NCBI GenBank assembly: GCA_028692875.1 | Contig: JAQUWL010000001.1 | Coordinates: 62,001-126,000 of the forward strand | Direction of reading: 5' to 3' | DNA: 64,000 nt | Source: Sulfurospirillaceae bacterium | GTDB taxonomy: Bacteria; Campylobacterota; Campylobacteria; Campylobacterales; Sulfurospirillaceae | Shown: positions 95 to 57,624 of the stretch, one piece after another | Layout of the letters: the number at the start of each line of letters is the position of its first letter | Position numbering within the stretch: position 1 is the first letter of the stretch | Translations under genes and position numbers: made by a program | Notes under the pieces: generated by a model | Seen by the model: the letters and a program-made list of their open reading frames with translations, nothing else | What the model was told of the DNA's origin: nothing | The model's database searches: none

Positions 95-3000
95 ATGTGG
101 TTAAAACTTAAAAAAAGTATTTTCTTTTGGATTGGGACATTGGTGTGCATCTATGCATTGGCGGGATTTGTTGTGGCTCCATATGTCGCAAAAACGCAAG
201 CCATATCATTTTTTGAAAAAAACTATGCTCTAGGGCTTTCGATAGAAAAAATCAATCTCAACCCATTTACCTTTGAGCTTGGCGTTAAAAAACTCTCCCT
301 TGCAGATAAAGACTCAAGACCTGCCATGGGATTTGAAGAGCTTTACATTGATTATGCCCTTTTGGGACTCTTTGAAAAAGTTGCTTTAGTAAAAAGCTTT
401 AAACTTTCAAAACCATTTGTCAACGCAAGAATCAATCCAGAGGGAGAGCTTAATCTTCTTGCTATGTTTGAAAACAGCTCAAGCCCCTCAGCTACAAACG
501 AAACGGAAAAACCAAAAGATAACAAAGAGCCTTTTTTTGGTTTTTTACTAAGTCGTTTTGAGTTAGATAACGGTAGTGTGAGTTTTCACGACGCACGTGG
601 CACAAAACCATTTTCTTTAGAGCTGGGACCCATTAACTATGTGATTAGAGATTTAGGTACACGCAAAAACGATTTAAGTTCGCACGCACTTAATGCTGAT
701 GCTCAAGACAATCAAGCCTTTAGCTACAACGGGGCTATATCTCTAGACCCACTTAAGATTTACGGTCAAATTGATATAAAAAATCTACAATTAAGTGATT
801 TTTGGGATTATGCACTTAGGGACATCAACGCAAATCTTTTAGCAAAAGCCTCTTTGCATGTTCCCTATGTGCTTGATTTAAGCAAGGAGGTGCCCGAATT
901 TTCAATCAGCAACGCCTCTGCAAATATTAAAAAAATAAAGATTCAACAAAAAGACGATAAAAATTCTTTTGTCTCTTTGGATGAAATTGACATTAAAAAT
1001 ATCAATTTTGCTATGCCACAACAAAATGTAGATATTGAAAGCGTAGATATACACAAGCCTTTTGCAAATCTTATATTGGATAAAAACAATCAAATAAATC
1101 TAACTCAAGCTTTTGTATTTAATGGTGTTGAGCAAAAAGAAAATCTCCAAAGCGATTCAAACACAACACAAAAACCGTGGGCTTTTTTATTAAAAACGCT
1201 ACGAATTCACGATGGCGGAGTAGATTTTACAGATTTGAACCCTAAAGAGTCACCAAAAACATCTATTGCCTCCATAAATACTACGGTTGAAAATATTTCA
1301 CTAGATAAGCAAACGCCTATAAATTACACCATAAATGCTACTATAGACAAACTTAGCACACTTGCCTCTCAAGGAACTATCGAGCAAGAACCTTTAGCCA
1401 TCGCAAGTTCTCTTGAGCTTAAAAATATCCAACTACTCAAAGCAAAACCTTATATTGAGCCTTTTGTAAATGTTGATTTGCAAAGTGGCAATATCGACCT
1501 TAAAGCAAAGGCAAATATAAAACTCAAAGAGCAACTTGATGCAAATGTTAACGCCGACTTGTCGGTTAAAGAGTTCTCTTTGGCAGATAAAAACAGAGCG
1601 AAACTACTCTCTTTTTCTTCACTAGACTTAAGCAACATTGCCTATGCACATCAACAAAAATCTCTTAATATAGACAAAATTTTACTCTCAAAACCAACTA
1701 TAAATGTTGCTATAGAAAAAGATAAAACAACAAATTTTTCAACACTTATAAAACCACAAAGCAACACTCAAGAGGCTCAAAAAAAGACAAATGAAAAAGA
1801 GCCAACCCAAGCCCCTCTAAATGCTCATATTAAAGAGTTTTCTCTTGCTGGTGGAGCCATATCAATGGTGGACAATGGACCACAAAAGAGTGTACATGTA
1901 GAGTTGAATCCCCTCAATATCGGACTTAAAAACATATCGACAAATCCAAAAGATACTATTTTGTATACTCTAAACACTGCCATAAACAAAAAATCCAAAC
2001 TTGCACTTAGTGGAGATTTTCAGCAAAAACCTCTGAAGCTAAAAACCAACTTTAATGCACGCGATATATATCTTCCATTGGCACAAGACTATCTTGAGCC
2101 TTTCATAAATCTAACTCTAGCAAAAGGGTTACTCTCTCTAAAGGGGAAAAGCGAAGTGCTAGTAGAAGATGGCAAAGAGCCTCAAGTAAGGGTTGATATC
2201 GACTCAAATATAAAAGATCTTCTTATTCAAGCCGAGGATAAAACTTCTCTGCTTTCATGGGGCTCACTAGTTTTTGATAACTTAAAATACGACCATTCTA
2301 AAGAGTCTTTGTACATAAAAAGCGTCACGCTAAAAGAGCCTTATGCCAATTTGCATATCAAAAAAGATAAAAGCACCAACTTTGGCAATATTGTCAAAAA
2401 AAATGAACTTTCTTCTGGCGAAAATGAGTCCGCTACTCAAGATACTTCTGCCAAAAAAGATATGCATCTCAATCTTGGACCGCTATCTTTAAAAAATGGT
2501 AGTCTGGACTTTAAAGACGAGAGTCTGCCTATACCTTTTTCAACATACATAAAAGGACTTAACGGCTCATTTTCAACGCTAAATACTCAAACAACAAAAC
2601 CATCTGTTTTGCTACTTGAGGGCAAAGTAAACAAATACGGTTACTCCAAAATCAGTGGCTCGGTACTGCCTTTTGATGTAAAAAACAACACAAATATAAA
2701 TGTCTTGTTTAAAAATATAGACATGACCTCACTTACACCATACTCTGGAAAATTCGTGGGATACGCCATAAAAGAGGGAAAATTATCTTTGGATTTGGGC
2801 TATAAAATCCAAAACGGTTCAATGCTAGGAGATAACAAGATAAACCTAGATTCTTTAACATTAGGTGAGACTATCGAAAGCCCTGATGCGGTAAGTTTGC
2901 CTTTGGGTTTAGCTATTGCTATTTTAAAAGATTCAAACGGTCAAATTGATATTGATTTACCTGTTAGTGGCGATTTAAACAATCCTGATTTTAGTTACGG

Positions 3001-3664
3001 TGGCATAGTTTGGAAGGCTATTGGCAATCTCATAACAGGCTTAGTTACATCCCCTTTTAGATTTTTAGGCTCAATGCTCGGCGTTAGCTCAGATGCTCTA
3101 AAAAGCGTTGAGTTTGCACAAGGAGATTTTAGCTTGGTGCCTTCTGAAGAGGAGAAAATGGAGCAATACGCCAAAATTGTTGCTAAAAGACCAAATCTAA
3201 AACTAAGCATTTCTGGTGGTTTTGATATGCAAGAAGATGCTAAAGCACTCAAGCAATCTGTTTTAGATGCAAATATTGAAGAGGAGAGCAAGCGTATTTT
3301 GGCAAAAGATAAAACCATAAGTGATCCTTACGGCGAAGCACTTAAGCAGTTATTTGTCAAAACTTTTTCAAAAGAGCGTTATGACACTATCTTGAAAAGC
3401 TACCAACAAAAACAAAAAGAGCAAAAACAGGCAAAGTTGGATTTTGCATCTTTACATGTACAGATGCAAACACATCTTTTGTCTCGTATTGTTATAGCTC
3501 CAGATGCGGTCAATCAATTAGCCAAAAAAAGAGTTCAGACTATTATTGACACTTTGGTTCAAAAACACAATATACCAAAAGACAAACTCATCGAAGGAGA
3601 GATTAAAGAGAGCTCATCTATTCGTGAAAAATGGGTTCCATGTGAGGTTTCAATATCCATCTAA
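95..3664 (+). CDS. DUF748 (AsmA-like) large envelope protein
   Basis: This protein of about 1190 residues has one N-terminal membrane segment (about residues 10-30) followed by a very long periplasmic region. The region contains repeated units of the type 'F.LS...L.nG.v.F.D', seen near residues 155-170, 370-380, 580-600 and 790-810. That architecture is the DUF748 family, related to AsmA/TamB-type proteins thought to act in lipid or outer-membrane assembly. The C-terminal 200 residues are helical and charged. The open frame extends to TTG at 89, but ATG at 95 has a better distance to the AAGG at 81-84. The gene ends in a hairpin shared with the convergent bcp gene. The family call is fairly sure; the cellular role is inference. 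Confidence 0.75.
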   Translation: MWLKLKKSIFFWIGTLVCIYALAGFVVAPYVAKTQAISFFEKNYALGLSIEKINLNPFTFELGVKKLSLADKDSRPAMGFEELYIDYALLGLFEKVALVKSFKLSKPFVNARINPEGELNLLAMFENSSSPSATNETEKPKDNKEPFFGFLLSRFELDNGSVSFHDARGTKPFSLELGPINYVIRDLGTRKNDLSSHALNADAQDNQAFSYNGAISLDPLKIYGQIDIKNLQLSDFWDYALRDINANLLAKASLHVPYVLDLSKEVPEFSISNASANIKKIKIQQKDDKNSFVSLDEIDIKNINFAMPQQNVDIESVDIHKPFANLILDKNNQINLTQAFVFNGVEQKENLQSDSNTTQKPWAFLLKTLRIHDGGVDFTDLNPKESPKTSIASINTTVENISLDKQTPINYTINATIDKLSTLASQGTIEQEPLAIASSLELKNIQLLKAKPYIEPFVNVDLQSGNIDLKAKANIKLKEQLDANVNADLSVKEFSLADKNRAKLLSFSSLDLSNIAYAHQQKSLNIDKILLSKPTINVAIEKDKTTNFSTLIKPQSNTQEAQKKTNEKEPTQAPLNAHIKEFSLAGGAISMVDNGPQKSVHVELNPLNIGLKNISTNPKDTILYTLNTAINKKSKLALSGDFQQKPLKLKTNFNARDIYLPLAQDYLEPFINLTLAKGLLSLKGKSEVLVEDGKEPQVRVDIDSNIKDLLIQAEDKTSLLSWGSLVFDNLKYDHSKESLYIKSVTLKEPYANLHIKKDKSTNFGNIVKKNELSSGENESATQDTSAKKDMHLNLGPLSLKNGSLDFKDESLPIPFSTYIKGLNGSFSTLNTQTTKPSVLLLEGKVNKYGYSKISGSVLPFDVKNNTNINVLFKNIDMTSLTPYSGKFVGYAIKEGKLSLDLGYKIQNGSMLGDNKINLDSLTLGETIESPDAVSLPLGLAIAILKDSNGQIDIDLPVSGDLNNPDFSYGGIVWKAIGNLITGLVTSPFRFLGSMLGVSSDALKSVEFAQGDFSLVPSEEEKMEQYAKIVAKRPNLKLSISGGFDMQEDAKALKQSVLDANIEEESKRILAKDKTISDPYGEALKQLFVKTFSKERYDTILKSYQQKQKEQKQAKLDFASLHVQMQTHLLSRIVIAPDAVNQLAKKRVQTIIDTLVQKHNIPKDKLIEGEIKESSSIREKWVPCEVSISI

Positions 3665-3682
3665 GAGGGCTTACCCTCTTAG
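3661..3682. terminator. Bidirectional hairpin terminator between DUF748 gene and bcp
   Basis: Nine-base arms CTAAGAGGG and CCCTCTTAG flank a 4-base loop (CTTA). The hairpin covers the TAA of the DUF748 gene on the plus strand and the TAA of bcp on the minus strand, so one structure can end both convergent transcripts. No long T-tract follows on either side. Confidence 0.65.
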
Positions 3683-4146
3683 CCTTGGAGCTGTTCTAGC
3701 TTTATGGCAACATTTTGCACATGATCTTCAACTTTAACATTTTCCCACATGTAAGCTATCTTTCCCTCTGGATTTATCAAAAAAGTTGAACGCACGATTC
3801 CCATATACTCTTTGCCATAATTTTTTTTCATCTGCCACACACCATACTCTTTGGATACTTCATTTTTTTCATCAGCAAGCAGTGTAATATCTAGTTTTTG
3901 TTTGGCTATAAAACTTCTGTGTTTTGCTGTACTATCAGGACTTACGCCTAAAATAACGGCGTTTAAATTTTCAAATTTTGGCAAAGATTCGCTAAATCCA
4001 CACGCCTCTTTGGTACATCCAGGCGTATTGTCCTTCGGGTAAAAATACAATACTATCCATTTTCCCTCCAAATCCCTCAAGCCTATTTCCACATCATCTT
4101 GGTTCGGCAGAGTAAAAAGTGGTGCTTTGTCTCCTATATTTAACAT
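3679..4146 (-). CDS. bcp: Thioredoxin-dependent peroxiredoxin, Bcp/PrxQ type
   Basis: This 155-residue cytoplasmic peroxidase reduces H2O2 and organic hydroperoxides using thioredoxin. The motif NTPGCTKEAC places the peroxidatic cysteine at 44 and the resolving cysteine at 49, the atypical 2-Cys arrangement of the Bcp/PrxQ group. Length is normal. It is a single gene, convergent with the DUF748 gene and divergent from ilvE. A clear -10 box lies 24 bases upstream of its ATG. The trxA and trxB genes that would supply electrons are in the same window at 11-13 kb. Confidence 0.93.
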   Translation of the reverse strand: MLNIGDKAPLFTLPNQDDVEIGLRDLEGKWIVLYFYPKDNTPGCTKEACGFSESLPKFENLNAVILGVSPDSTAKHRSFIAKQKLDITLLADEKNEVSKEYGVWQMKKNYGKEYMGIVRSTFLINPEGKIAYMWENVKVEDHVQNVAIKLEQLQG

Positions 4147-4169
4147 ATCGGCTCCTTTTTTAAAACCTC

Positions 4170-4175
4170 ATTATA
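4170..4175 (-). promoter_or_regulatory. Probable -10 box for bcp
   Basis: ATTATA on the plus strand reads TATAAT on the minus strand, 24 bases before the bcp ATG. No convincing -35 is seen, which is usual for Campylobacterota sigma-70 promoters. Confidence 0.5.
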
Positions 4176-4244
4176 GCCTGTTTGAAAGATATAAAACTCT
4201 CTTTAATCTTAAGTAGGGTATCATTGTGACCATTTGAATACCAC

Positions 4245-4250
4245 TATAAT
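4245..4250 (+). promoter_or_regulatory. Probable -10 box for ilvE
   Basis: A perfect TATAAT lies 22 bases before the ilvE ATG at 4272. A weak TTGTGA at 4224-4229 could serve as a -35, but the 15-base spacing is short. Confidence 0.5.
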
Positions 4251-4271
4251 TTTAAAATAAGGCAAACTAAA

Positions 4272-5186
4272 ATGGACAAGGCTCAGTATATTTGGATGGA
4301 TGGAAAGTTGGTTAATTGGGATGATGCGAAGATTCATATCTTGACTCATACACTTCATTATGGCAACGGTGTCTTTGAAGGCACAAGAGCTTATATGACC
4401 GATAATGGTTTGGCTATTTTCAAACTCAAAGAACATACTCAAAGACTTTTAAACTCCGCAAAAATTACACGTATTAAGCCAAACTTTTCACTAGAAGAGT
4501 TGGAAAAGGCACATGTTGAGCTTTTAAGAGCTAACAAATTTAAGTCAAATGTATATCTTAGACCGATTATATATTTGGGCTATGGCATCATGGGAATAAA
4601 CCACATCAAAGCACCTGTAAATACAGCCATAGCTGCATGGCAATGGGGAAGTTATCTAGGCGACGAGGGACTTGAAAAAGGTATTAGGGTAAAAATCTCA
4701 TCATTTACAAGAAATCCTGTTGGCTCAACAATGGGTAAAGCCAAAGCATCAGCAAATTACCTAAACTCGCAGATGGCAAAATATGAAGCCATAGAGGCAG
4801 GCTACGAAGAGGCGCTTCTTTTGGACGATGAGGGTTTTTTGGGAGAAGGGAGTGGAGAGTGTTTTTTTATTGTTAGAAATGGAGTTTTGATATCCCCCCC
4901 CAATGACACATCGCTTGAGAGTATTACACAAGGAATGGTGCTTGAGCTCGCCAAAGATATGGGCATTGAGGTGCAAAGAAGAAGAATCACAAGAGATGAG
5001 ATTTATATCGCAGATGAGGCATTTTTCACAGGAACTGCTGCTGAAGTAACACCTATTCGCGATGTGGATAATTATGTCATTGGAGACGGAAAAAGAGGGG
5101 AGATGACTCGTAGACTTCAGCAAGCCTATTTTGATGTGGTGTATGATAGAAATCCTAAATACAAACATCTTTTAACCTTTATCTGA
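4272..5186 (+). CDS. ilvE: Branched-chain amino acid aminotransferase
   Basis: This 304-residue class IV PLP-dependent aminotransferase makes the final transamination step to leucine, isoleucine and valine. The start region (W.DGKLV.W.DAKIH.LTH.LHYG.GVFEG.R) is the family hallmark. The catalytic lysine is K158 in KAKASANYLNS, and the C-terminal TGTAAEVTPIR phosphate-binding segment is present. It has its own promoter and is divergent from bcp. A short hairpin follows the stop. Length and motifs are normal. Confidence 0.95.
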   Translation: MDKAQYIWMDGKLVNWDDAKIHILTHTLHYGNGVFEGTRAYMTDNGLAIFKLKEHTQRLLNSAKITRIKPNFSLEELEKAHVELLRANKFKSNVYLRPIIYLGYGIMGINHIKAPVNTAIAAWQWGSYLGDEGLEKGIRVKISSFTRNPVGSTMGKAKASANYLNSQMAKYEAIEAGYEEALLLDDEGFLGEGSGECFFIVRNGVLISPPNDTSLESITQGMVLELAKDMGIEVQRRRITRDEIYIADEAFFTGTAAEVTPIRDVDNYVIGDGKRGEMTRRLQQAYFDVVYDRNPKYKHLLTFI

Positions 5187-5201
5187 TTAGATAAAATAAA
5201 T

Positions 5202-5228
5202 TTCTTGTCATTTTGCAAGAACTATAAT
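5202..5228 (+). promoter_or_regulatory. Hairpin and -10 box upstream of the SPFH gene
   Basis: TTCTTG (5202-5207) and CAAGAA (5216-5221) form a 6-bp stem with an 8-base loop, 15 bases after ilvE. It may be a weak terminator or an operator. A perfect TATAAT follows at 5223-5228, only 17 bases before the ATG at 5246, with AAAGGA as ribosome site at 5235-5240. The leader would therefore be very short and the hairpin sits in the -35 region. Confidence 0.4.
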
Positions 5229-5245
5229 AAAAACAAAGGAATAAT

Positions 5246-6331
5246 ATGCCAGCAGATTTGAATGATTATTTTAAAAAGAAAAACGGTGGAGGCGGAAGTG
5301 GTGGCGATGACAACAATCGAACACCTCTAAATATTGAACCGCCAGAATTTTCCAAACTATTTGGTAAAAAAACAGGTTTTTTGTATGTAATTATTGGATT
5401 GATAGTTATTTTTATAATTGCCAAGCCTTTTGTTATTATCAACTCTGGAGAGATGGGCATAAAAGCAACAGCAGGTAAATTTGAGGCACATCCTATGGAG
5501 CCGGGATTTCATCTTTTTGTTCCATTTATTCAGCAAGTTTTTATTGTGGACACGAAAGTTAGGATTATGAACTATTCATCCACTGAAGATTTGGGAGAGG
5601 TTCTTCAAAGAGGCTCAGGCATCAAGAAAAATGCTGCTATCTCTGTTTTGGACGCAAGAGGTCTTCCTGTTTCTATTGACTTAACCGTTCAATATAAATT
5701 AGAATCAGCCACTGCACCTCAGACTATTGCTTCATGGGGTATGGCGTGGGAAGACAAAATCATCAACCCAGTAGTAAGAGATGTTACAAGAAGTGTTGTT
5801 GGCAAGTTTAATGCAGAAGAGTTGCCGCAAAAACGAAACGAAATCGCTGTAAACATAGAGGAGGGCATTAGAAAGGCTATTGATGCACAACCAGGACAAC
5901 CAGTTGAGCTATTGACAGTACAACTTAGAGAGATAGTTTTGCCTTCTAAAATCAAAGAGCAGATTGAACGTGTTCAAGTTGCCAAACAAGAGGTTGAGCG
6001 AACTCGCTATGAAGTAGAAAAAGCAAATCAAGAGGCATTAAAGCGTGCTGCGGAGGCTGAAGGTCAGGCTAAAGCTAGAGAAATAAACGCTCAAGGCCAA
6101 GCAAATGCCATTAAAATAGAAGCGGAAGCCGATGCCTATGCAAATAAAAAGATAAGCGATAGCATCTCTGAGCCTCTTTTAAAGCTTCGCCAAATTGAAG
6201 TTCAAGGAAGATTTAACGATGCCCTCAGAGAGAACAAAGATGCAAAAATTTTCCTAACACCTGGTGGTGCAACTCCAAATATTTGGGTTGACACAAAAGA
6301 TACACAAAAAACAATAAGTGCTACAAAATGA
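5246..6331 (+). CDS. SPFH/band-7 membrane protein (HflK/prohibitin-like)
   Basis: This 361-residue protein begins with a Gly/Ser/Asn-rich linker of HflK style, followed by one membrane segment (about 43-66). An SPFH domain follows (NSGEMGIKATAGKFE... to about 250), then an Ala/Glu/Gln-rich coiled coil (about 250-310, with RAAEAEGQAKAREINAQGQA). SPFH proteins form ring or cage assemblies that organise membrane domains and restrain FtsH-type proteases. No HflC partner is adjacent, so it may work as a homomer. The stop overlaps the hisIE start by four bases (ATGA), suggesting translational coupling. Confidence 0.85.
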   Translation: MPADLNDYFKKKNGGGGSGGDDNNRTPLNIEPPEFSKLFGKKTGFLYVIIGLIVIFIIAKPFVIINSGEMGIKATAGKFEAHPMEPGFHLFVPFIQQVFIVDTKVRIMNYSSTEDLGEVLQRGSGIKKNAAISVLDARGLPVSIDLTVQYKLESATAPQTIASWGMAWEDKIINPVVRDVTRSVVGKFNAEELPQKRNEIAVNIEEGIRKAIDAQPGQPVELLTVQLREIVLPSKIKEQIERVQVAKQEVERTRYEVEKANQEALKRAAEAEGQAKAREINAQGQANAIKIEAEADAYANKKISDSISEPLLKLRQIEVQGRFNDALRENKDAKIFLTPGGATPNIWVDTKDTQKTISATK

Positions 6332-7026
6332 GTTTTGACAGTAGCGTATTAAAGACGGTGGACTGGGGCAAATCTCCCCTTCTGCCTGCGATTGCACAAG
6401 ACTTCGTAACAGGAGAGGTCTTGATGCTTGCCTATATGAATCAAAAAGCACTTGAGCTTAGCATAGAAACTGGTCTCGCACATTACTACTCAAGAAGCAG
6501 AGAAAAACTTTGGAAAAAGGGCGAAAGCAGTGGACACTTTCAGCACATTAAAGAGATATATCTTGACTGCGACAGCGATTCTGTTTTGCTAAAAATAGAA
6601 CAAGATGGCGGTGTTGCATGCCACACTGGAAGAAAGTCTTGTTTTTATCAAAAGATAGATTCCAACTCTTGCGAGACTATTTGCGAACCAGTCAAAGATA
6701 TATCTGGCTATAGTATTGGCGACAAAGTGTATCACGCTATATTAGAGAGAAAACATGCAGATCCAAAAGAGTCTTATGTTGCATCTTTGTTTTATAAAGG
6801 CGAAAATGCGATTTTGAAAAAAGTTGTCGAGGAAGCTGGAGAGTTTTGCTTTGCTATCAAAGATGGGGATAAAAAAGAGATTGTTTATGAAGCTGCTGAC
6901 TTAGTGTTTCATGCACTGGTAGCACTTGGACATAAAAATATCAATCCTGATTTGATTTCGCAAGAGCTTGAAAAACGATTTGGAACGAGCGGTATAGCCG
7001 AAAAGCAAAGTAGAAATGATCATTGA
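6328..7026 (+). CDS. hisI: Bifunctional phosphoribosyl-AMP cyclohydrolase / phosphoribosyl-ATP pyrophosphatase
   Basis: This 232-residue HisIE fusion performs steps 2 and 3 of histidine synthesis. HisI occupies about residues 10-125 and shows its metal-binding motif (DCDSDSVLLKI..DGGVACHTG..SCF). HisE occupies about 130-220 with the MazG-like acidic helix (KKVVEEAGEFCFAIKDGD....YEAADLVFHALVAL). It overlaps the SPFH gene upstream and the DUF2393 gene downstream (11 bases), so all three are probably one transcript. Other his genes are not adjacent; hisC is at 38 kb. Confidence 0.94.
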   Translation: MSFDSSVLKTVDWGKSPLLPAIAQDFVTGEVLMLAYMNQKALELSIETGLAHYYSRSREKLWKKGESSGHFQHIKEIYLDCDSDSVLLKIEQDGGVACHTGRKSCFYQKIDSNSCETICEPVKDISGYSIGDKVYHAILERKHADPKESYVASLFYKGENAILKKVVEEAGEFCFAIKDGDKKEIVYEAADLVFHALVALGHKNINPDLISQELEKRFGTSGIAEKQSRNDH

Positions 7027-7540: not shown

Positions 7541-7566
7541 TGTAAAATTTTAAGGGGGTTGTTGTT

Positions 7567-21364: not shown

Positions 21365-22215
21365 ATGACCCAATCATCCAAATGGAAAAATTTTCATCCG
21401 ATATGGTTGTTTATAATGATGGAGAAATAGAGTTAAAAGTTTCTGTAGATGAAGAAACGGTGTGGTTAAATAGAATTCAAATATCCGATTTGTTTGAGAG
21501 AGATGTAAAAACCATAGGCAAGCACATAAACAATGTTTTTGATGACGGCGAACTTGAGAAGTTTTCAGTTGTCGCAAATTTTGCGACAACTGCCCGTGAT
21601 GGCAAAAGTTATAATGTTGAATATTACAATTTAGATGTCATCATCTCGGTTGGGTATAGAGTCAAATCACCAAAAGGTGTAAAATTTCGCCAATGGGCAA
21701 CCTTAGTTCTCAAAAGCTACATACAAAATGGCTATGCTATCAACGCCCACAAAATAACAGAACAACGCCTATCTATTCTTGAAAATGATGTAACCACCAT
21801 CAAGTCTCACATTAAAAATAACACCTTAGACTTCAAACAAGGCATCTTTTTTAATGGGCAGATATTTGACGCTTATGCACTTTTATCAGACCTGATAAAC
21901 AGCGCGAAAGGCTCTATCGTATTGATAGATAACTACATTGACGCATCCATTCTGACACTCTTTTCCAAAAATCCCCATGTTACATGTACCCTCTACACCA
22001 GCGCCATTTCTAAACAACTGGAACTGGATATTCAAAAATATACCAAACAATACGGCAATCTCAGCGTTAAAACCACTAAAAACTTTCACGATAGATTTTT
22101 AATCTGCGATGAAACCGTGTACCACTTTGGCGCAAGCCTAAAAGACTTGGGACACAAAGTTTTTGCGGTCAATAAAATGAATATGTCGGCTAATGATATA
22201 CTGAAGAATGTATAG
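21361..22215 (+). CDS. RhuM-family protein with PLD-like C-terminal domain
   Basis: This 284-residue protein has an N-terminal half (about 10-135: VDEETVWLNRIQISDLFERDVKTIGKHI, then YYNLDVIISVGYRVKSPKGVKFRQWA) of the RhuM virulence-protein family, found widely on islands and mobile regions. The C-terminal part (about 165-280: ...IVLIDNYIDASILTLFSK... and NFHDRFLICDETVYHFGASLKDLG) resembles a phospholipase-D-like nuclease fold. In it the usual HxK is HDR, followed by D and a GaSlKD segment. The molecular function of RhuM is not established. A striking palindrome lies inside the gene (21566-21592). Confidence 0.75.
   Translation: MNDPIIQMEKFSSDMVVYNDGEIELKVSVDEETVWLNRIQISDLFERDVKTIGKHINNVFDDGELEKFSVVANFATTARDGKSYNVEYYNLDVIISVGYRVKSPKGVKFRQWATLVLKSYIQNGYAINAHKITEQRLSILENDVTTIKSHIKNNTLDFKQGIFFNGQIFDAYALLSDLINSAKGSIVLIDNYIDASILTLFSKNPHVTCTLYTSAISKQLELDIQKYTKQYGNLSVKTTKNFHDRFLICDETVYHFGASLKDLGHKVFAVNKMNMSANDILKNV
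21566..21592. repeat. 27-nt intragenic palindrome in the RhuM gene
   Basis: Arms CAGTTGTCGCAAA and TTTGCGACAACTG match perfectly over 13 bases around a single central T. It encodes the Ser-Val-Val-Ala-Asn-Phe-Ala-Thr-Thr-Ala stretch of the RhuM domain. As RNA it would fold into a strong hairpin with a tiny loop, and as DNA it could bind a dimer or extrude as a cruciform. Confidence 0.8.
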
Positions 22216-22217
22216 AC

Positions 22218-22499
22218 TTAATCTTTCCCCACTACATGTAAGCACTCAGAAGTAACTTGCCTTACTTTATCTTGCGTGCGCACATTATTCGGATTAAAAC
22301 GCTTATAATCGGATTTTACAACGCTGTAACGTCCATAGCGTGATAGTATCGCTTTTATCTCTTCTTGGCTCATGTAGCCCTCGTTATTGTAGCTTACAAA
22401 GATGTATTTGAATTGTGCATTCCTGATTAGCTCTTCAAAGGCTACATGTACGCTTTTTTTGAGACAGTACGAACTCGTCTTACATGTACGTTCATTTTT
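22218..22499 (-). pseudogene. C-terminal remnant of a D12-class adenine-specific DNA methyltransferase
   Basis: The minus strand is open for 93 codons from an upstream stop (complement of 22500-22502) to TAA at 22218-22220, without a start codon in the first 50 codons. The translation contains AFEELIRNAQFKYIFVSYNN followed by EGYMSQEEIKAILSRYG and ends in ECLHVVGKD. This is the recognisable last third of D12-class (Dam-like) N6-adenine methyltransferases: 'KYIFLSYNNEGLMS..EI..I...YG'. The DPPY and FxG catalytic motifs would lie upstream and are missing; lpxB occupies that space. It is a truncated relic of a restriction-modification or orphan methylase gene. Three TACATGTA octamers lie within it. 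Confidence 0.7.
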
Positions 22500-22561
22500 T
22501 TAAGACATTTTTGACTATCATCTATCAAAATATTCCCATCTCTTATCAAAAAGGAAAACTA

Positions 22562-23590
22562 TTGAAGATATTGGTTTCGTCACTAGAGCCATCGGCAAAT
22601 TTACATTTAGAGCCTATCTTGAAAGCGTTGGGCGAGTGCGAGTTGTGCGGTATTTTTGATGAGAGATTTGGAGAACCACTTTTGCCAAGTCGTGCTTTTT
22701 CTATTATGGGGTTTTTGGATGCCATTCCCAAAATCAAAAAAGCCAAAGAGGCTATCAAGAAAATGGCACAGATGAGCCTACATGTAGACAAAGTTTTGCT
22801 CATAGACTCTCCAGCTTTCAACCTTCCTTTGGCAAAAGCCATAAAAGAGCTAAACCCAAATGTGAAAATCATCTACTATATTTTGCCTCAAGTTTGGGCG
22901 TGGAAAGCAAAAAGAGTGGCAAAAGTGGAAAAATACTGCGATGTATTGGCTTCAATCTTACCGTTTGAAAAGCAGTTTTACAGCAAAGCGACTTATGTTG
23001 GGCACCCGCTTTTGGACGAGATACCAACTTTTAAAAAGTCGTACGAAAAAACAGGCACCATAGCTTTTTTGCCCGGAAGTCGAAAAAGTGAGATAAAAAC
23101 TCTTTTGCCCATCTATAAAGCGGTTTCCAAAACTTTGGGCAAGCGTTCTATTTTGGTTATTCCGCCACATTTTAGCGACACCGAGATAGAGCAGATTTAT
23201 GGAGATGTAAGCCAATTTGAACTTTCAAAAAATACATATGATGCGTTTTTGAAAAGTGAATTTGCGTTTGTGTGTTCAGGCACGGCAACGCTTGAGGCGG
23301 CACTTGTTGGTGTTCCGTTTGTGTTGGCGTATAAGGCGAAATGGTTGGATTATGTCATCGCCAAAAGATTTGTCAAACTCTTACATGTAGGGCTTGCAAA
23401 TATTCTGTTTGATTTTGAGAAACTTCCACCTCTACATGTAGAGCTTTTGCAAAAAGATGTAAACGTAGAAAATCTAATAAAAGCGTATAAAGATACCAAT
23501 TTAGAGCTTTTTTTTAAGAGAGCATTAACGCTACGGACTCTTTTGAGACACGGTAGCAAAGAAGAGATGATAAAGATAATGAGTGTATAA
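22562..23590 (+). CDS. lpxB: Lipid-A-disaccharide synthase
   Basis: This glycosyltransferase of about 342 residues joins UDP-2,3-diacylglucosamine and lipid X in lipid A synthesis at the inner membrane. The N-terminus 'MKILVSSLEPSANLHLEPILKAL' and the nucleotide-sugar loop 'FLPGSRKSEIKTLLP' are characteristic, and 'CSGTATLEAALVGVPFVLAYK' is the donor-binding end. The open frame reaches back to ATG at 22484, but the first 26 codons run through the methylase relic. TTG at 22562, preceded by AAGGAAAA, gives the family start. Three TACATGTA copies lie inside, all read Leu-His-Val. Confidence 0.93.
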   Translation: MKILVSSLEPSANLHLEPILKALGECELCGIFDERFGEPLLPSRAFSIMGFLDAIPKIKKAKEAIKKMAQMSLHVDKVLLIDSPAFNLPLAKAIKELNPNVKIIYYILPQVWAWKAKRVAKVEKYCDVLASILPFEKQFYSKATYVGHPLLDEIPTFKKSYEKTGTIAFLPGSRKSEIKTLLPIYKAVSKTLGKRSILVIPPHFSDTEIEQIYGDVSQFELSKNTYDAFLKSEFAFVCSGTATLEAALVGVPFVLAYKAKWLDYVIAKRFVKLLHVGLANILFDFEKLPPLHVELLQKDVNVENLIKAYKDTNLELFFKRALTLRTLLRHGSKEEMIKIMSV

Positions 23591-47949: not shown

Positions 47950-47974
47950 ATTGAATCAAAAAAAGGAGAAGATT

Positions 47975-48259: not shown

Positions 48260-48272
48260 GTCAATTTTAATT

Positions 48273-48300: not shown

Positions 48301-48341
48301 AGAATATTTATTTTTTAATTAAAATTAAAACTTTTTTCTGC

Positions 48342-48347
48342 TATACT
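48342..48347 (+). promoter_or_regulatory. Probable -10 box for ndk
   Basis: TATACT lies directly after the fdxA terminator in an AT-rich stretch. It would give a leader of about 60 bases to the ndk GTG. Confidence 0.4.
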
Positions 48348-48413
48348 CCCACCTTCCAAAACCCGTAATATTTAAAAAGATATTTTCATTTACTATAAAA
48401 ACAGGAGACAATT

Positions 48414-48827: not shown

Positions 48828-48830
48828 GTA

Positions 48831-49193: not shown

Positions 49194-49194
49194 A

Positions 49195-49347
49195 ATGGCA
49201 GTTCCAAAGAGACGAGTGAGCAAAACAAGAGCGGCAAAAAGAAGAACACACTACACAGTAACACTTCCAGTACCGGTAAAAGATAGTGATGGTACATGGA
49301 AAATGCCTCACAGAATTAACAAGACTACAGGCGCATATAAAAACTAG
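49195..49347 (+). CDS. rpmF: 50S ribosomal protein L32
   Basis: This 50-residue protein starts [20 protein letters not shown], the L32 hallmark. The C-terminal half lacks the CxxC zinc pairs found in some L32 forms, so this is the cysteine-free form. The ribosome site AAGGAG lies inside the end of the upstream gene. plsX begins at the base after its TAG, so rpmF and plsX are coupled. Confidence 0.97.
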
Positions 49348-50349: not shown

Positions 50350-50351
50350 GT

Positions 50352-51344
50352 TTGTACGCATCTCTTAAATCTATCGGAGGGTATGCTCCAAAAAACATTC
50401 TAAGTAATGCGGACCTTGAAAAAATGGTTGACACAACGGATGAGTGGATTGAAAAACGTACAGGTATAAAAGAGAGACGAATAGCCTCCAAAGATGAAGA
50501 TACGAGCGATTTGGGTGTAAAAGCAGCACTTTTAGCGATTGAGCGAGCTGGAATAGACAAAGACGAGATAGATCTTATTATTTGTGCTACTTTGTCGCCT
50601 GATTATCTTTGTATGCCTTCCACTGCGTGTGTTATTGCTGGAAAATTGGATATCCAAAACGTTATGGCATTTGACATTAGTGCTGCATGTAGTGGTTTTG
50701 TCTATATGCTTTCTATGGCAAAAGCCTTTATAGAATCAGGTGCTAAGAAAAATATTTTGTTGATTGGTGCTGAAAAAATAAGTAGCGTTGTGGACTATAC
50801 AGACAGAGGAACTTGCATCCTTTTTGGCGATGGTGCAGGAGCTGCGATAATTGGTGTTACCGAAGATAAAAATGAAGCTATTATTGATATACATGCTTCA
50901 GCAGATGGCAGATATGGCGATTTGCTGATAACTCCAGGTTGTGGCTCAAAGTATCCATGTTCGCAAGAGACGCTTGATAAAAAGTTAAATTTTATCAAGA
51001 TGAGCGGAAATGATGTTTATAAGATAGCTGTTAAAACACTAACGAGTGACGTTATTGATATTTTAGAGAGCAATAATTTGAGCGTATCTCAGATAGACCA
51101 CTTTATACCACATCAAGCAAATTTTAGAATCATTGAAGCTGTGCGTGCAAAACTTGATTTTCCTGTTGAAAAAACCGTACTTACTGTTGCAAAATATGGC
51201 AACACCTCCGCTGCTTCTATTCCGATGGCGATTAATGACGCTTACGAAGAGGGTCGTATCAAGAAGGGCGACTTAATGTTGCTTGATACTTTTGGTGGTG
51301 GATTTACTTGGGCGAGTGCTCTTGTGCGTTTTGGCGGAAACTAA
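50352..51344 (+). CDS. fabH: 3-oxoacyl-ACP synthase III (FabH)
   Basis: This 330-residue thiolase-fold enzyme starts fatty-acid chains from acetyl-CoA and malonyl-ACP. The triad is visible: Cys in [12 protein letters not shown], His in IPHQANFRI and Asn in [11 protein letters not shown]. The start is TTG at 50352, with AAGGGG upstream. Last gene of the ndk–fabH run. Confidence 0.96.
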
Positions 51345-51383
51345 TTTTTAAGACACGTTAACCTTTTATTTATCCCTAGTAAG

Positions 51384-51411
51384 TAAAATTTTGTAAATGT
51401 AACTTACAAAA
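51384..51411 (+). promoter_or_regulatory. Promoter and perfect inverted repeat ahead of moxR
   Basis: TAAAAT (51384-51389) could be the -10 box. It runs directly into TTTTGTAA (51389-51396) and TTACAAAA (51404-51411), perfect 8-base arms around 7 bases. The repeat ends about 10 bases before the moxR GTG and includes the AAAAGG ribosome site, so it could be an operator or an mRNA hairpin covering that site. Confidence 0.45.
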
Positions 51412-51420
51412 GGATTCTTT

Positions 51421-52368
51421 GTGATTGAAGAGTTTACCCAATTAAAAAAAGAAATTTCCAAAGTTATTGTTGGTCACTCGGCGATGTTAGATTCTCTTAT
51501 CGTCGCATTGTTGTGTGAAGGGCATGTTCTTATAGAAGGTGTCCCAGGGCTTGCAAAAACAACGACTATTAACGCTTTAGCTAAAGCTTTGGGATTAAGT
51601 TTTGGAAGAGTTCAGTTTACTCCAGACCTTCTTCCTAGCGATATTGTTGGGGCGCAAATATACAGTCCCAAAACCTCCGAATTTAAAACAAAAAAAGGCC
51701 CCATCTTTACCAATCTTTTGTTGGCAGATGAGATTAACCGAGCACCCGCAAAAGTTCAATCTGCCTTGCTTGAGGGAATGCAAGAGCATCAAGTTACTAT
51801 AGGCGAGGAGAGCTTTGAGTTGCCTAGACCGTTTTTTGTTCTTGCAACTCAAAATCCGCTTGAATCCGAAGGCACTTATGCCTTGCCAGAAGCACAACTT
51901 GATAGATTTATGATGAAAATTCTTTTAAAATACAACACGAAAGCCGAAGAGATAGAGTTGGCTAGACGAATATCACTTCAAAGTAATGAGGCTATACAAA
52001 ATGTGTTGGATTTGCCTACACTTTTGCAGATGCAACAACAACTTAAAGCCGTACATATAGACTCTCAAGTTGAAGAGTATATCGCTGATATCGTTTTTGC
52101 TACAAGAAATCCTCAAGACTATGGTATGCCAAAATTGCAAGAGCTTATACGTTTCGGGGCTAGTCCTAGGGCGACCATTGACCTAAACAAGGCTTCTAGG
52201 GCTTATGCTATGATGCAAGGCAAGGATTATGTAACTCCTGTGGACGTTGTTAGTGTGGCAAAAGAGGTAATGCGTCATAGAATAATATTGAGCTATGAAG
52301 CACAAGCTGAAAATATTGACGTTGATACCATTTTGGATGAAATCATACAAACTTTACCACTACCATAA
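51421..52368 (+). CDS. MoxR-family AAA+ ATPase
   Basis: This 315-residue chaperone-like ATPase has Walker A GVPGLAKTTT (about 41-50), Walker B LLLADEINRAPAKVQSALLEGMQE, sensor-1 ATQNPLESEGTYALPEAQLDRF and sensor-2 GASPRATIDL. MoxR proteins work with vWA proteins encoded beside them to mature or protect partner proteins. Start GTG at 51421. First gene of the six-gene Bat-type run to 57.6 kb; its stop overlaps the DUF58 start by one base. Confidence 0.93.
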   Translation: MIEEFTQLKKEISKVIVGHSAMLDSLIVALLCEGHVLIEGVPGLAKTTTINALAKALGLSFGRVQFTPDLLPSDIVGAQIYSPKTSEFKTKKGPIFTNLLLADEINRAPAKVQSALLEGMQEHQVTIGEESFELPRPFFVLATQNPLESEGTYALPEAQLDRFMMKILLKYNTKAEEIELARRISLQSNEAIQNVLDLPTLLQMQQQLKAVHIDSQVEEYIADIVFATRNPQDYGMPKLQELIRFGASPRATIDLNKASRAYAMMQGKDYVTPVDVVSVAKEVMRHRIILSYEAQAENIDVDTILDEIIQTLPLP

Positions 52369-53204
52369 TGCAAACGCTACGCTATGATGCCCTAATTGCA
52401 AGGGCAAAAAAATCTGTTTTTGGCGAAACCGCTGGCAATAACACCTCTTTAAAGGAGGGCGATGGTTATGATTTTGCTCAAATACGTCCTTACATGTACG
52501 GCGATAATGTGCGTCGAATTGATTGGAAAAGTAGTGCCAAAACAGGAGAGATTCAGCTACGAAGTTTTTTTGAAGAAAAAGAGATCAATGTTCACGTAGT
52601 GGCTCAAATGAATGGAAGTATGCATTTTGGTATAAAACGCATGAAGCAAGAAGTTATGGCAGAAGTAGTTGCTATTATCGGATTTAGTGCGGTTAAGAAT
52701 TCTGATAATTTTTCACTCTGCATCTTTGGCGAGAAGTTGCTCTGGAGCTCAACCCCATCCAAAAAAGAGGCAGGGGTAAGAAGAGCCGTAAAAGAGCTTT
52801 TGAGTATTAGCCCCATTGGTCGCAAACTCAATGAAGACTCGATTAAGCATTATGCACTCAACCAGATAAAAAAACGCTCACTACTTTTTATTGTGGGAGA
52901 TTTTTTTGAGATACCTCATATTGAGGCGGTTGCAAAAAAACATGAGATTGTCATTGTTAAAATCAGAGACAAATTTGAAGAAAAACCTCTACATGTAGGA
53001 AGTGTGATGGTTGTTGATCCTCAAACGTTAAAATCAGAAAAAATAACGCTAAATAGTGATTTTATCGACTCTTATACCAAAAGACAAAAGCAGTTTGAAA
53101 AAGAGCTTGGCGGATATTTTAAGAAAAACAATATGCGAAATATCACAGTATATACTGATGAAAATCCATATATAAAACTTTGCTCAATGATGGGTCGCAT
53201 ATGA
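52368..53204 (+). CDS. DUF58 domain protein
   Basis: This 278-residue protein has the DUF58 signature 'GDGYDFAQIRPYMYGDNVRRIDWKSSAKTGEIQLRSFFEEKE' around residues 29-70 (the RxYxxGD.vR.IdW element), followed by a vWA-like fold. No membrane segment is obvious, unlike many DUF58 proteins. It normally pairs with MoxR and BatA/BatB. Two TACATGTA copies (52491, 52990); the first encodes Tyr-Met of the signature itself. Confidence 0.88.
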   Translation: MQTLRYDALIARAKKSVFGETAGNNTSLKEGDGYDFAQIRPYMYGDNVRRIDWKSSAKTGEIQLRSFFEEKEINVHVVAQMNGSMHFGIKRMKQEVMAEVVAIIGFSAVKNSDNFSLCIFGEKLLWSSTPSKKEAGVRRAVKELLSISPIGRKLNEDSIKHYALNQIKKRSLLFIVGDFFEIPHIEAVAKKHEIVIVKIRDKFEEKPLHVGSVMVVDPQTLKSEKITLNSDFIDSYTKRQKQFEKELGGYFKKNNMRNITVYTDENPYIKLCSMMGRI

Positions 53205-53587
53205 TGGAAGAGTTGCGAGATATAAAGGGTTTGGTGGCGATTGAAGATAGTTCGCTTTTGATATTTATAGCTCTTACATGTAGCCTTGTTTTGCTCGCTT
53301 TTATGTTTGTGCGATGGCTCCTGAAGTGGCGTAAAAGAGGGCAAAAACACAATCAAATCGCTATTGCTAAAGATATGCTTCAAAATCTTGACATAAGTAA
53401 CTCTAAAGAGACTTCATATAAGATTGGCAAGTGGGGAAGGCTTTTGTGTGCAGAAAACCCAGAACACATAGCACTTTTTGAAAAAATTTTTGAATTGACA
53501 AATTCCTACAAATACCAAAAAGAGGTTCCGCCCTTTGGCGAGAAAGAAAAAAATCTTATTCAAGAGTTTGTGAGTAAAGTCGTATGA
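53201..53587 (+). CDS. Small membrane protein of the Bat operon (DUF4381-like)
   Basis: This protein of about 128 residues has one membrane segment (about 17-38, LLIFIALTCSLVLLAFMFV) followed by a basic cytoplasmic region. Size and place between DUF58 and the first vWA gene match DUF4381-type proteins in other Bat operons. The open frame starts at TTG 53180, but ATG at 53201 overlaps the DUF58 stop (ATGA) and is preferred. It overlaps batA by four bases. Confidence 0.6.
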   Translation: MMEELRDIKGLVAIEDSSLLIFIALTCSLVLLAFMFVRWLLKWRKRGQKHNQIAIAKDMLQNLDISNSKETSYKIGKWGRLLCAENPEHIALFEKIFELTNSYKYQKEVPPFGEKEKNLIQEFVSKVV

Positions 53588-54501
53588 ATAATTTTACTTT
53601 TGAATATCCCGCTGTTTTTTTACTATTGATTCCTTTTGTTCTATGTGCCATTTTTTGCAAACAACGAGCAACTTCATTTTATATACCGCATATTTTAAAT
53701 ATGCCTTTACATGTAAAGAAAACAAGGCTTAGCGCCATACTAAAATGGATAAGTCTTACTCTTATCGTTACGGCTTTGGCTTCACCCGTAATACAAAGTG
53801 AAAGTACTCCAAAACGATACTCTCATGCCTTGATGCTTTTGATGGACGTTAGTGAATCGATGGTTCGAGGAGCTTTGGGTTTTGGGCAGATGGGCAGATA
53901 TGAAAATAAGTTTGATATGTCCAAATATTTGGCAAGCGAGTTTATCTTAAAGCGTGAAAATGACAATGTTGGCGTTATCGTTTTTGGCGATTTTGCATAT
54001 GTTGCTTCTCCTTTGACGTTTGACCACAAAAGTGCATCCAGACTTTTGGAGACCATTTTGCCAGGCGTGGCGGGGCGGAAAACGGCGATGTATGACGCTC
54101 TGTTTTTGTCGACAAGGCTACTTCAAAAAAGTGAAGCCAAAGAAAAAGTGGCGATTTTATTGACCGATGGTTTCAATACCGCTGGAAAGGTGCCGTTTAA
54201 CGTGGCATTGCGTGCCATACAGAGCGAAAAAATCAAAGTTTATACCATAGGCATAGGACGAGAGGGCGAATATGACGAGGCGGTTTTAAGGCATATTGCA
54301 AAGCAAAGTGGAGGGGATTTTTATAAGGCGAAAGATGAAAAGACTTTGCAGTTGATTTATGAGCAGATAGATAAGCAGGAAAAGAGTCTTCTAAAGTCCC
54401 AAACCATAGTGCGTTATGAATATCTCTACATGTATCCATTGTCATTCGGATTTGTCACGCTTTTGGGCTATCTTTTGATGGTTTTAAAGGAGCAAGAGTG
54501 A
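53584..54501 (+). CDS. batA: BatA-like von Willebrand factor A membrane protein
   Basis: This 305-residue protein has two N-terminal membrane segments (about 5-22 and 52-70), a vWA domain (about 85-265) with metal site DVSES (LLMDVSESMVRG) and 'LLTDGFNTAG', and a C-terminal membrane segment (about 280-300). It is the BatA component proposed to act in the periplasm in oxidative/aerotolerance stress and protein maturation with MoxR. Neighbours overlap by four bases on both sides. Two TACATGTA copies. Confidence 0.85.
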   Translation: MNNFTFEYPAVFLLLIPFVLCAIFCKQRATSFYIPHILNMPLHVKKTRLSAILKWISLTLIVTALASPVIQSESTPKRYSHALMLLMDVSESMVRGALGFGQMGRYENKFDMSKYLASEFILKRENDNVGVIVFGDFAYVASPLTFDHKSASRLLETILPGVAGRKTAMYDALFLSTRLLQKSEAKEKVAILLTDGFNTAGKVPFNVALRAIQSEKIKVYTIGIGREGEYDEAVLRHIAKQSGGDFYKAKDEKTLQLIYEQIDKQEKSLLKSQTIVRYEYLYMYPLSFGFVTLLGYLLMVLKEQE

Positions 54502-56180
54502 GTTTGGTTTATCCATATTTTCTTTTTGGATTGTTTGTCATAGCTCTTGTTGCGATGAGCGAGAAGTGGATATATAGCAAAGAGCGTTTTGTGGATATAG
54601 CTACACTAAAACATCTGATAGTTGGAGATGGAACATCTTTACATGTAAGAAAGAAAATAGGAATTTACACAGCGTTGGTTTTGGTTGTTATCGCCCTTTG
54701 CAGACCAGTTTTGATGAGTTTTCAAGAGAGTGAAAAAGTCGATGCAAAAGGTGTTTATCTAGGAATCGCACTAGATATTTCAAAATCCATGCTCGCACAC
54801 GACATATACCCAAATAGGCTCGATTTTGCTAAGAAAAATATCGAAACATTGATAAGCCAACTACCTCACGCAACAATTTCAATCAGTGCTTTTTCGGCTT
54901 CAGCCTTTTTGGTTTCACCTTTTAGCGAAGATAAAGATACGTTGCGTTTTTTGCTAAAACATCTAAATCAAGACTCGATTACAAGCGAGGGAAGCTCGAT
55001 ACTTTCGGCTTTAAAAGCTATGAAACAACTTTATGAGCCTTTTGATTTTGGAGTTAAAGATATTTTACTCGTGAGTGATGGGGCTGATGGAAGAGAGATA
55101 AAAGAGGCAGTTGAATTTGCCAAAAAAGAGAATTTTGTTGTTCATATTTTTGCAGTTGGAACTCAAAAAGGCTCGCCCATATATGCCCAAAATAAAGAGC
55201 TACTAAAAGATGCTCAAGGCAATATCGTTATCAGCAAAAGAGATGATAGTATGGCGATGTTGTCGGATGCAACAGGTGGTGTTTTTGTTGCAAGTGTTGG
55301 AGAGAGCACTGATATAAAGTGGCTCGTCTCAAATATAGAGAAAAAAATTCAAAAAAGAGAGATGAAAACAGAGCAAAACATTCCTTCCAAAGAGTTATTT
55401 TACTATCCACTCTTTTTTGCTATTGCAGTTTTGTTTATAAGTATGTTTGGCTTTTCGTTTCGCCATAAATCAATGGCAAGTGTTTTGTTTTTGGTATATT
55501 TGTCAAACTTGCCTTTACATGCAGGGATATTTGATTTTTTAACGATTGGTAAAGGAGAAAAAGCTTACGAAAAAGGTGCGTTTGAAGAGGCTCAAAAAGC
55601 CTATGAGAAGCTAAATAAAACACCCGCTTCCATGTACAATCTAGCAAATACAAAATACAAACAAGGCAACTATAAAGAGGCACTTAAGGCGTACGAAGAG
55701 GCTAAAACAGAAGCATCATCTTTTGAGCAAAAAAGGCTTTACAACAAAGCCAACACATTAGCAAAGCTTCAAAAAATTGATGAGGCGATAAAGAGTTACG
55801 AAGAGGCTTTAAATATAGGAGAGGATGAGGATGCGAGATTTAATTTGGAGTTGCTAAAAAAACAGCAAAAACAAAAAGAGCAACAGCAACAAAAAGAGTC
55901 TCAAGATGAGCCAAAAAAAGATGACAAAACCGACCAAAGTAAACAAAAAGATGGTTCATCACAAAAACAAGAGCCTCAAAAAGAGGAAAAAAATGATAAA
56001 AAAGATGGCAACAAAGAAGAGTCTAAAGAGTTACCAAAAGATAAAATACAAGACTCTTTAATGAGTGAGCAAGAGGCGAAAAAATGGGAAAAGCTTTTGC
56101 AAAATCAAGAGATTCCAACACGTCCACATGAGATGGTTAAGGGCGAAATAAAGGATGAGAAAAATGCAGTTACATGGTAG
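54498..56180 (+). CDS. batB: BatB-like vWA protein fused to a TPR (BatC-like) domain
   Basis: This 560-residue protein has two membrane segments (about 5-20 and 52-70) and a vWA domain (about 88-280; metal site DISKS, 'LLVSDGADG'). A membrane segment or pair follows (about 302-345), then TPR-like repeats (about 350-450: KGAFEEAQKAYEKL, GNYKEALKAYEEAK, DEAIKSYEEALNIG) and a very charged Lys/Glu/Gln tail (about 455-530). In other bacteria the TPR part is the separate BatC; here it is one polypeptide. One TACATGTA copy (54650). Confidence 0.85.
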   Translation: MSLVYPYFLFGLFVIALVAMSEKWIYSKERFVDIATLKHLIVGDGTSLHVRKKIGIYTALVLVVIALCRPVLMSFQESEKVDAKGVYLGIALDISKSMLAHDIYPNRLDFAKKNIETLISQLPHATISISAFSASAFLVSPFSEDKDTLRFLLKHLNQDSITSEGSSILSALKAMKQLYEPFDFGVKDILLVSDGADGREIKEAVEFAKKENFVVHIFAVGTQKGSPIYAQNKELLKDAQGNIVISKRDDSMAMLSDATGGVFVASVGESTDIKWLVSNIEKKIQKREMKTEQNIPSKELFYYPLFFAIAVLFISMFGFSFRHKSMASVLFLVYLSNLPLHAGIFDFLTIGKGEKAYEKGAFEEAQKAYEKLNKTPASMYNLANTKYKQGNYKEALKAYEEAKTEASSFEQKRLYNKANTLAKLQKIDEAIKSYEEALNIGEDEDARFNLELLKKQQKQKEQQQQKESQDEPKKDDKTDQSKQKDGSSQKQEPQKEEKNDKKDGNKEESKELPKDKIQDSLMSEQEAKKWEKLLQNQEIPTRPHEMVKGEIKDEKNAVTW

Positions 56181-57624
56181 ATTTTGGTTTTTGTTATGGA
56201 TGGCAACAACAACGCTTTTTGGAGCACAAGCATTTTTGCAAAACCCATCTATATACGAAGGTCAAGAGGCTATTTTGGTTTTAAAAGCCACGGGTGAAAA
56301 GATTGAATTTCCGAATATTTCAAGCATTGAAGGCAACGATATCGTCTCAAAACAAGAGAGGCAAAGTGTCGAATTTATAAATGGAAAGGTCAAAAAAGAG
56401 GTTGAAAAAAGATTTGGTTTTTATCCAAAACAGGACTTTGAAATACCCTCATATGAGATTATTGTCGATGGAAAAAAGGAGCTGACAGAGCCTATTAGGG
56501 TGGTGTTGAAAAAAGAAAATGAACAGCCTAAAAGTAGCAGTACAAAAGAGCCTTTTTCTCTTTTAATGCGAGTTTCCAATGAAAATCCAATGCAAAATGA
56601 GGCGGTAAAACTTGATATTGTTTTTAAGCGGGATAAGCGTTTAGAAGTTGTTGATATAAGATTTTCTCCTCCAGTTCTTGATGGCTTTTGGGTTAAAGAG
56701 GGCGAGAAAAAGCCTGTTTATGAAGAAGACGGTTTTATGGTTCACTCCCTTAGCTATTATGTTTTCCCCCAAAAAGCGGGAGATTTGAGTATTGAAAAAG
56801 CAAAAATAGAGTTAGCTCTTCCGCAAAGAGATAGCTCAAACGATATGTTTAGAATGTTTGTCTCCCAAGTACGTTGGAAGAGTGTTTTCTCAAATCCAAT
56901 AACCTTACATGTAGAGCCACTTGAAGGAACAAATCTTTATGGCGATTTTTCACTAAATATTACTGCGGATAAGCGTGAAATTGGCAAAAATGAGGCAGTT
57001 AATGTTTTGGTTGAGATAAAAGGCGAGGGTAATTTTGATGATATTTCTAGTTTTTCACTTGTTGCAAAAGGTGCCAATATTTTTGCAGATGAGCCAAAAG
57101 TAAAAAGCTATATTCAAAAAGATAAACTAATGGGACAATGGAGCCAAAAATTTTCTTTGAGTGGGGCGCAAGATTTTACGATAGAGCCTTTAGTGCTTAC
57201 CTTTTTTGATGCAAAAAAAAGAGCTCTTAAGACTCTTAAGACCGAGCCTATTGATATCAAAGTATCTGGGGATGCTCAAAAAGAAGAGTCGATAAAGTAT
57301 ATTTTTAAAACAGAATCAAACCAAAGTGCACCAATCCAAGAGACGCAAAATGTTGCTAAAAATGGCTTTGATATGGTTAGTTTTGCATTTGGTTTTGCAT
57401 TGGCAATAGCACTTTTGGTCGGATTTTTTATTTTTAAAAAGGTGTTTAGTTTTAAAAAATTTCAATATAGCGAAAGAGCACTACTTAAGATGTTTTTAAA
57501 ACATAAGGGCAAAAACGAAGCGATAGATAAAATCATCATGGAATTAGAGGAGAATATTTATCGAGGTGGCACAAATCGTATCAATAAGCGTGCCACCAAA
57601 AAGATATTAGAGGATTTTGTGTAG
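56164..57624 (+). CDS. batD: BatD-like membrane protein
   Basis: This protein of about 486 residues has an N-terminal signal segment (FWFLLWMATTTLFGAQA), a large beta-rich periplasmic region with repeated Ig-like strands (SLLMRVSNENPMQNEAVKLDIVF, LNITADKREIGKNEAVNVLVEIKGEGN), and one C-terminal membrane segment (about 403-422). That is the BatD/DUF3808-like oxygen-tolerance protein plan. ATG at 56164 is preferred over 56155 because AAAGG is 8 bases before it. It overlaps the batB end and converges with tyrA, sharing 18 bases. One TACATGTA copy (56906). Confidence 0.8.
   Translation: MQLHGRFWFLLWMATTTLFGAQAFLQNPSIYEGQEAILVLKATGEKIEFPNISSIEGNDIVSKQERQSVEFINGKVKKEVEKRFGFYPKQDFEIPSYEIIVDGKKELTEPIRVVLKKENEQPKSSSTKEPFSLLMRVSNENPMQNEAVKLDIVFKRDKRLEVVDIRFSPPVLDGFWVKEGEKKPVYEEDGFMVHSLSYYVFPQKAGDLSIEKAKIELALPQRDSSNDMFRMFVSQVRWKSVFSNPITLHVEPLEGTNLYGDFSLNITADKREIGKNEAVNVLVEIKGEGNFDDISSFSLVAKGANIFADEPKVKSYIQKDKLMGQWSQKFSLSGAQDFTIEPLVLTFFDAKKRALKTLKTEPIDIKVSGDAQKEESIKYIFKTESNQSAPIQETQNVAKNGFDMVSFAFGFALAIALLVGFFIFKKVFSFKKFQYSERALLKMFLKHKGKNEAIDKIIMELEENIYRGGTNRINKRATKKILEDFV

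Follow-up and report, generated by a model that had tools for sequence, protein, structure and literature searches.

Why does one palindromic octamer, TACATGTA, recur so often in a 64,000-nucleotide stretch of a Sulfurospirillaceae genome (the window), and what keeps it there? The original prediction reported 29 copies where composition would give about two. We recover exactly 29, spanning positions 1893..56913, and the expectation is even lower, as dinucleotide shuffles predict 0.80 and a third-order Markov model 0.65. Under the latter, TACATGTA leads all 8-mers in the window in over-representation by a wide margin, and the only words, palindromic or otherwise, to approach its excess are those that overlap it; ACATGT is in excess because TACATGTA is. 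The relevant features of the window are:

Starts 1893, 3453, 13429, 14146, 19591, 21981, 22233, 22443, 22481, 22779, 23382, 23433, 25337, 25512, 30170, 32993, 36512, 36944, 39170, 42396, 44193, 45112, 52491, 52990, 53275, 53708, 54427, 54640, 56906 (no strand assigned): the 29 copies of TACATGTA, core of the wider palindrome CYYTACATGTARRG
21981..23440 (no strand assigned): the window's densest TACATGTA cluster (7 copies within 1.46 kb), covering the last part of a RhuM-like gene together with the dead methyltransferase and lpxB
22221..22490 (minus strand): dead fragment with the final ~90 codons of a gene for a D12-class N6-adenine DNA methyltransferase

A palindrome enriched throughout the genome

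The copies lie in genes of both strands and in three codon phases, as had been claimed (4 in phase 0, 14 in phase 1 and 7 in phase 2, with 4 outside open reading frames). No single peptide motif explains them, as synonymous codon shuffling of the window yields 3.2 copies on average and never more than 8, against 25 actual coding copies. The whole window genome (1.94 Mb) contains 887 copies of TACATGTA and 28 of the reversed control word, which rules out a normal count elsewhere in the genome. A 428-kb sample holds 191 randomly spaced sites (CV 1.0); 150 of them are genic, and 19 genic copies remain after synonymous shuffling. Density is ~3x higher in intergenic than in coding DNA of this genome, and in Sulfurospirillum the intergenic excess is >3x, between convergent or divergent genes. 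As in the HIP class of words described from cyanobacteria, the palindrome is singularly over-represented genome-wide, whatever the codon phase.

Two small contigs of the window genome (C7 and C24), each with DNA methyltransferase genes, carry no TACATGTA in 26 kb where ~12 are expected; mobile islands and mis-binned contigs are possible readings. Two S. diekertiae plasmids have 13-14 copies each, and time resident, not chromosomal location, may decide whether the word is present.

Distribution, dialects and anatomy of the element

The enrichment extends to relatives of the window genome, being found in 43 of 44 Sulfurospirillaceae genomes (92-1727 copies in enriched members other than the window genome; 424-573 per Mb in typical members); the 76 genomes that represent other families in the order show none of it (0-45 copies). 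The 44th family genome (G003, closed, 2.378 Mb), which encodes a ComEC-family protein, has 28 copies of TACATGTA but 685 of ATCATGAT, a word present 25-112 times in each of the 43 others; this genome has switched its word. A second dialect, clear only in G022 and G036, raises GACATGTC to 88 copies (control 4) and 55 copies (control 3), respectively. G022 has a relaxed preference, KACATGTM, and carries GACATGTC at two positions whose orthologues in relatives are TACATGTA. CATG is common to all dialects. The signature should be useful for recognising Sulfurospirillaceae DNA in metagenomes.

The preference extends beyond the octamer. In Sulfurospirillum (probably our genus g3) with the family-type enzyme described below, 146 of 159 sites read TTACATGTAA, and the preference for flanking bases fades outward (T 96%, T 76%, C 52%). 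What Sulfurospirillum carries is therefore really a palindrome of 14 bp with graded preference, CTTTACATGTAAAG, and its form in the window genome is CYYTACATGTARRG.

Among aligned sites of Sulfurospirillum species that bear the enzyme, 347 of 463 are conserved against a background of 154 for any octamer, the species pairs sharing history and not being independent; in G013, which lacks the enzyme, no aligned site is conserved, with only six or seven distinct sites involved. The enzyme-bearing species show no excess of words with one mismatch (99 vs 113); in the window genome such words number 212 vs 119, mostly outer-base transitions such as CACATGTA (35 vs 4) and TGCATGTA (26 vs 6.6), and the core is intact (TACGTGTA, 1 vs 3). 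Deviations thus fall at the outer positions, and positions 4 and 5 are protected, again as in the HIP class. The flanking bases of the element tend to persist around these near-misses, which are therefore derived or weak elements, and the outer bases of the element look eroded in the window genome.

A candidate methyltransferase and a dead copy of a relative

A methyltransferase family search found a D12 enzyme of ~327-346 aa, its class confirmed as PF02086, in most members of Sulfurospirillaceae. In seven closed Sulfurospirillum chromosomes its gene lies at 0.89-0.93 of the chromosome, on one strand throughout. In a protein search of 80 genomes we sorted the family enzymes by identity to L176, a homologue from a Campylobacterales MAG, into a family-type version (<=57% identity) and one that other families also have (>=61%). 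The family-type version occurs in 17 genomes, a class drawn up after the identities were seen, and every one of them has 424-573 TACATGTA per Mb; the 13 with the shared version range from 12 to 529 per Mb (p=4e-5). Chromosomal genes of the family type lie at C1:2827678-2828643 in G026 and at C1:2225024-2225989 in G031. Four of five near-complete Sulfurospirillum genomes without the enzyme have 42-249 copies per Mb, so that densities below 250 per Mb occur in 4/5 genomes without it vs 1/14 with it (Mann-Whitney p=0.004, Fisher p=0.006, without phylogenetic correction and with genomes that are not independent). The sole low-density genome among these 14 is G022, with the relaxed dialect; like G036, it carries a 346-aa version that is 61-62% identical to L176.

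The correspondence has exceptions. Three ~99% complete genomes in which the enzyme was not detected keep many sites (G028, 500 per Mb; G004, 416 per Mb; G018, 242 per Mb), which requires either recent loss or independence from the enzyme. G014, G025 and G015 have an intact enzyme of a different clade and few sites (50-87 per Mb), and other families have similar enzymes (56-73% identity) without accompanying TACATGTA. The L176 gene stands alone beside tsaD, with five copies of TACATGTA in 7.4 kb and no restriction partner at the locus. The D12 adenine methyltransferase is probably solitary, and it is the leading candidate partner of TACATGTA.

Phage homologues of this enzyme are annotated as 'ulcer associated adenine specific DNA methyltransferase', which we take to mean the CATG enzyme hpyIM of H. 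pylori. The CATG specificity of hpyIM is given in the reference list of PMC2749054. CATG is depleted near two homologues (3 vs 30 near that of Pasteurella, 9 vs 25 near the other), and the homologue superfamily also holds other specificities, such as FokI- and LlaI-like. Given the names of the phage homologues, this depletion and the constancy of CATG in the dialects, the candidate is predicted to be of the CATG type.

The original prediction had placed copies of the palindrome in a dead gene fragment; they are there, and the fragment is the methyltransferase remnant listed above. Compared with the enzyme of S. diekertiae plasmid pSDCE1, its identity is 91.5% over 177 bp of DNA and 93% over 59 aa of protein. 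The fragment has TACATGTA at 22233, 22443 and 22481, the last two with the 38-bp spacing of the plasmid gene. This C-terminal fragment is the sole trace of a candidate-type D12 enzyme in the window genome. Given the DNA identity, either the loss was recent or the copy was acquired not long ago and then died; a dead copy of the plasmid-shared type need not equal the ancestral enzyme. The pSDCE1 record places the plasmid in Sulfurospirillaceae, and the second contig of G002 has the same gene at the same position (1692). In pSDCE1 the gene (L180 1692-2732) contains four copies of TACATGTA within 1 kb and continues at its 3' end into an IS21 element, which takes the place of the C-terminus. The plasmid enzyme had one match among viral contigs, of little informative value.

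Other methyltransferases were rejected as partners. The C5 type (PF00145) is missing from three element-bearing genomes, and the N6_N4 type (PF01555) from about half of the family, G026 and further closed genomes with high counts among them; enzymes of Types I and III are present too. The two intact D12 enzymes of the window genome are DpnM/Dam-like, each with a likely restriction partner (L001, G000:C24; L019, G000:C6:10001-30000), which fits the avoidance of GATC (258 vs 1712 expected in the genome sample, 0.15 of expectation). With TACATGTA as its word and GATC strongly avoided, the genome does not carry HIP1 proper. CATG is not strongly avoided in Sulfurospirillaceae. As a separate observation, ACGT is almost absent (0-0.03 of expectation) from samples of genus g4 except G003 (L032-L039, L049-L050; G014, G025, G007), which suggests an ACGT-cutting restriction system.

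Known systems and competing explanations

HIP1 (GCGATCGC) and the alternate HIPs of cyanobacteria are associated with orphan GATC/CGATCG methyltransferases, and a methylation-directed MutS/MutL ratchet has been proposed for their origin (Elhai 2015, PMC4390886). The likeness to HIP1 suggested originally holds in detail: both are palindromic octamers at roughly 500 or more copies per Mb in all codon phases, associated (for TACATGTA with exceptions) with an orphan-type methyltransferase whose target is the core (probably so for TACATGTA), with replacement palindromes in relatives and with deviations at the first and last base. TACATGTA differs in belonging to another phylum, in being A+T-rich with a CATG core and a wider graded 14-bp consensus, and in having dialects that retain the core; a dead methyltransferase and apparent site erosion occur together in the window genome. 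A further difference lies in repair. MutL (PF01119) was found in none of the 44 family genomes, in a search whose control was positive in 11 of 14 reference genomes, and the proposed repair mechanism therefore cannot be shared.

Three other systems offer comparisons. The DUS and USS words of Neisseriaceae and Pasteurellaceae (PMC12616744) are similar in density, dialects between relatives, graded flanks and intergenic enrichment, but are non-palindromic and have no methyltransferase tie, and TACATGTA is only a putative uptake word. Closer in taxonomy, within the same order, C. jejuni imports only DNA that CtsM has methylated at RAATTY (PMC10046745). RAATTY is a different word; it is likewise a short palindrome paired with an adenine methyltransferase, as TACATGTA putatively is, and an uptake role is again putative here. 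CATG methyltransferases of the HpyI/NlaIII type resemble the candidate in D12 class (PF02086), in the annotation of phage homologues and in the depletion of CATG near some homologues. The HpyI-type enzyme is the partner of iceA in H. pylori (PMC2749054), whereas the L176 locus has no restriction partner, CATG is not strongly avoided in Sulfurospirillaceae, and the specificity of the candidate is a prediction.

We favour, with some but no great confidence, the view that Sulfurospirillaceae genomes are marked throughout by a HIP-class element with TACATGTA as its core. The D12 enzyme would methylate the adenine of the CATG core, and a second, sequence-specific reader would prefer the flanks of the element, the graded consensus being the reason to invoke a protein besides the methyltransferase. 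DNA with the methylated element would be favoured, most likely as self-DNA in uptake and recombination, and transformation or selection would keep making and restoring perfect sites. A methylated mark for uptake of self-DNA is our best guess because of the CtsM precedent in C. jejuni. In the window genome the enzyme would have been lost recently, leaving the element as a relic with eroding outer bases. Among the roles named in the original prediction, a methylation site has the best support.

It is less probable, and on balance doubtful, that TACATGTA is an uptake signal or another dimeric-protein site (for an uptake receptor, nucleoid or recombination factor) read independently of methylation, with the methyltransferase incidental. 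A consensus graded over 14 bp (96%, 76%, 52%) exceeds the usual length of a methyltransferase target, the element can persist in genomes without the enzyme, intergenic density is ~3x genic or more, the two small window-genome contigs lack the element, and its density falls within that of known uptake sequences. On the other hand, enzyme type tracks both density and dialect, the CATG core is invariant, the S. diekertiae plasmids carry sites too, and uptake sequences are not known to be palindromic.

The repair model of HIP1 is very unlikely to apply. It would make TACATGTA a functionless by-product, biased repair near methylated sites ratcheting neighbouring sequences to the palindrome. It shares the correlate, a methyltransferase for the core, and Elhai describes the same substitution pattern for HIP1, outer deviations with a protected core (PMC4390886). 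The ratchet cannot act here, however, as the MutL that it needs is absent, and the suggestion of a repair-associated word is refuted in its published MutS/MutL form; repair by a route that needs no MutL could bring it back. There is next to no probability that TACATGTA owes its frequency to codon usage, peptide usage or a repeat family: phase 1 (hydrophobic-His-Val) is indeed the commonest, but this cause is refuted by the synonymous shuffles (19 vs 150 coding copies), by the occurrence of the word in all phases and more densely in intergenic DNA, and by the replacement dialects.

With MutL repair excluded, selection or biased transmission for perfect sites remains. A broader proposition, which we advance tentatively, is that TACATGTA exemplifies a palindromic mark of self-DNA that is coupled to methylation and whose dialects evolve, kept by drive or selection without mismatch repair, in which a methyltransferase and a putative reader would write and read the 14-bp palindrome at hundreds of sites in each genome. 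If true, such a mark would be a general mechanism and could explain HIP1 too. HIP1 has been unexplained since the 1990s. Sulfurospirillaceae provide a second, independent HIP-type case with cleaner genetics, in that full density, dialect switches and losses occur among related species, and in the window genome, which has no MutL, a methyltransferase died while sites apparently began eroding. The published repair explanation is removed for this family, and one small gene is indicated. In agreement with the original prediction, a full-text search of open-licence papers returned no description of such an element in Campylobacterota.

Other words in the order were also considered. An enrichment of GTTATAAC in G051, apparent in 20 kb, proved local in larger samples, and one of GCGATCGC in G057, likewise apparent in 20 kb, was near expectation in larger samples. 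In G053, from another family of the order (L102, L168-L171), TAAATTTA occurs 117 times in 100 kb vs 34 expected, and may be another highly iterated palindrome of the order, unrelated to TACATGTA.
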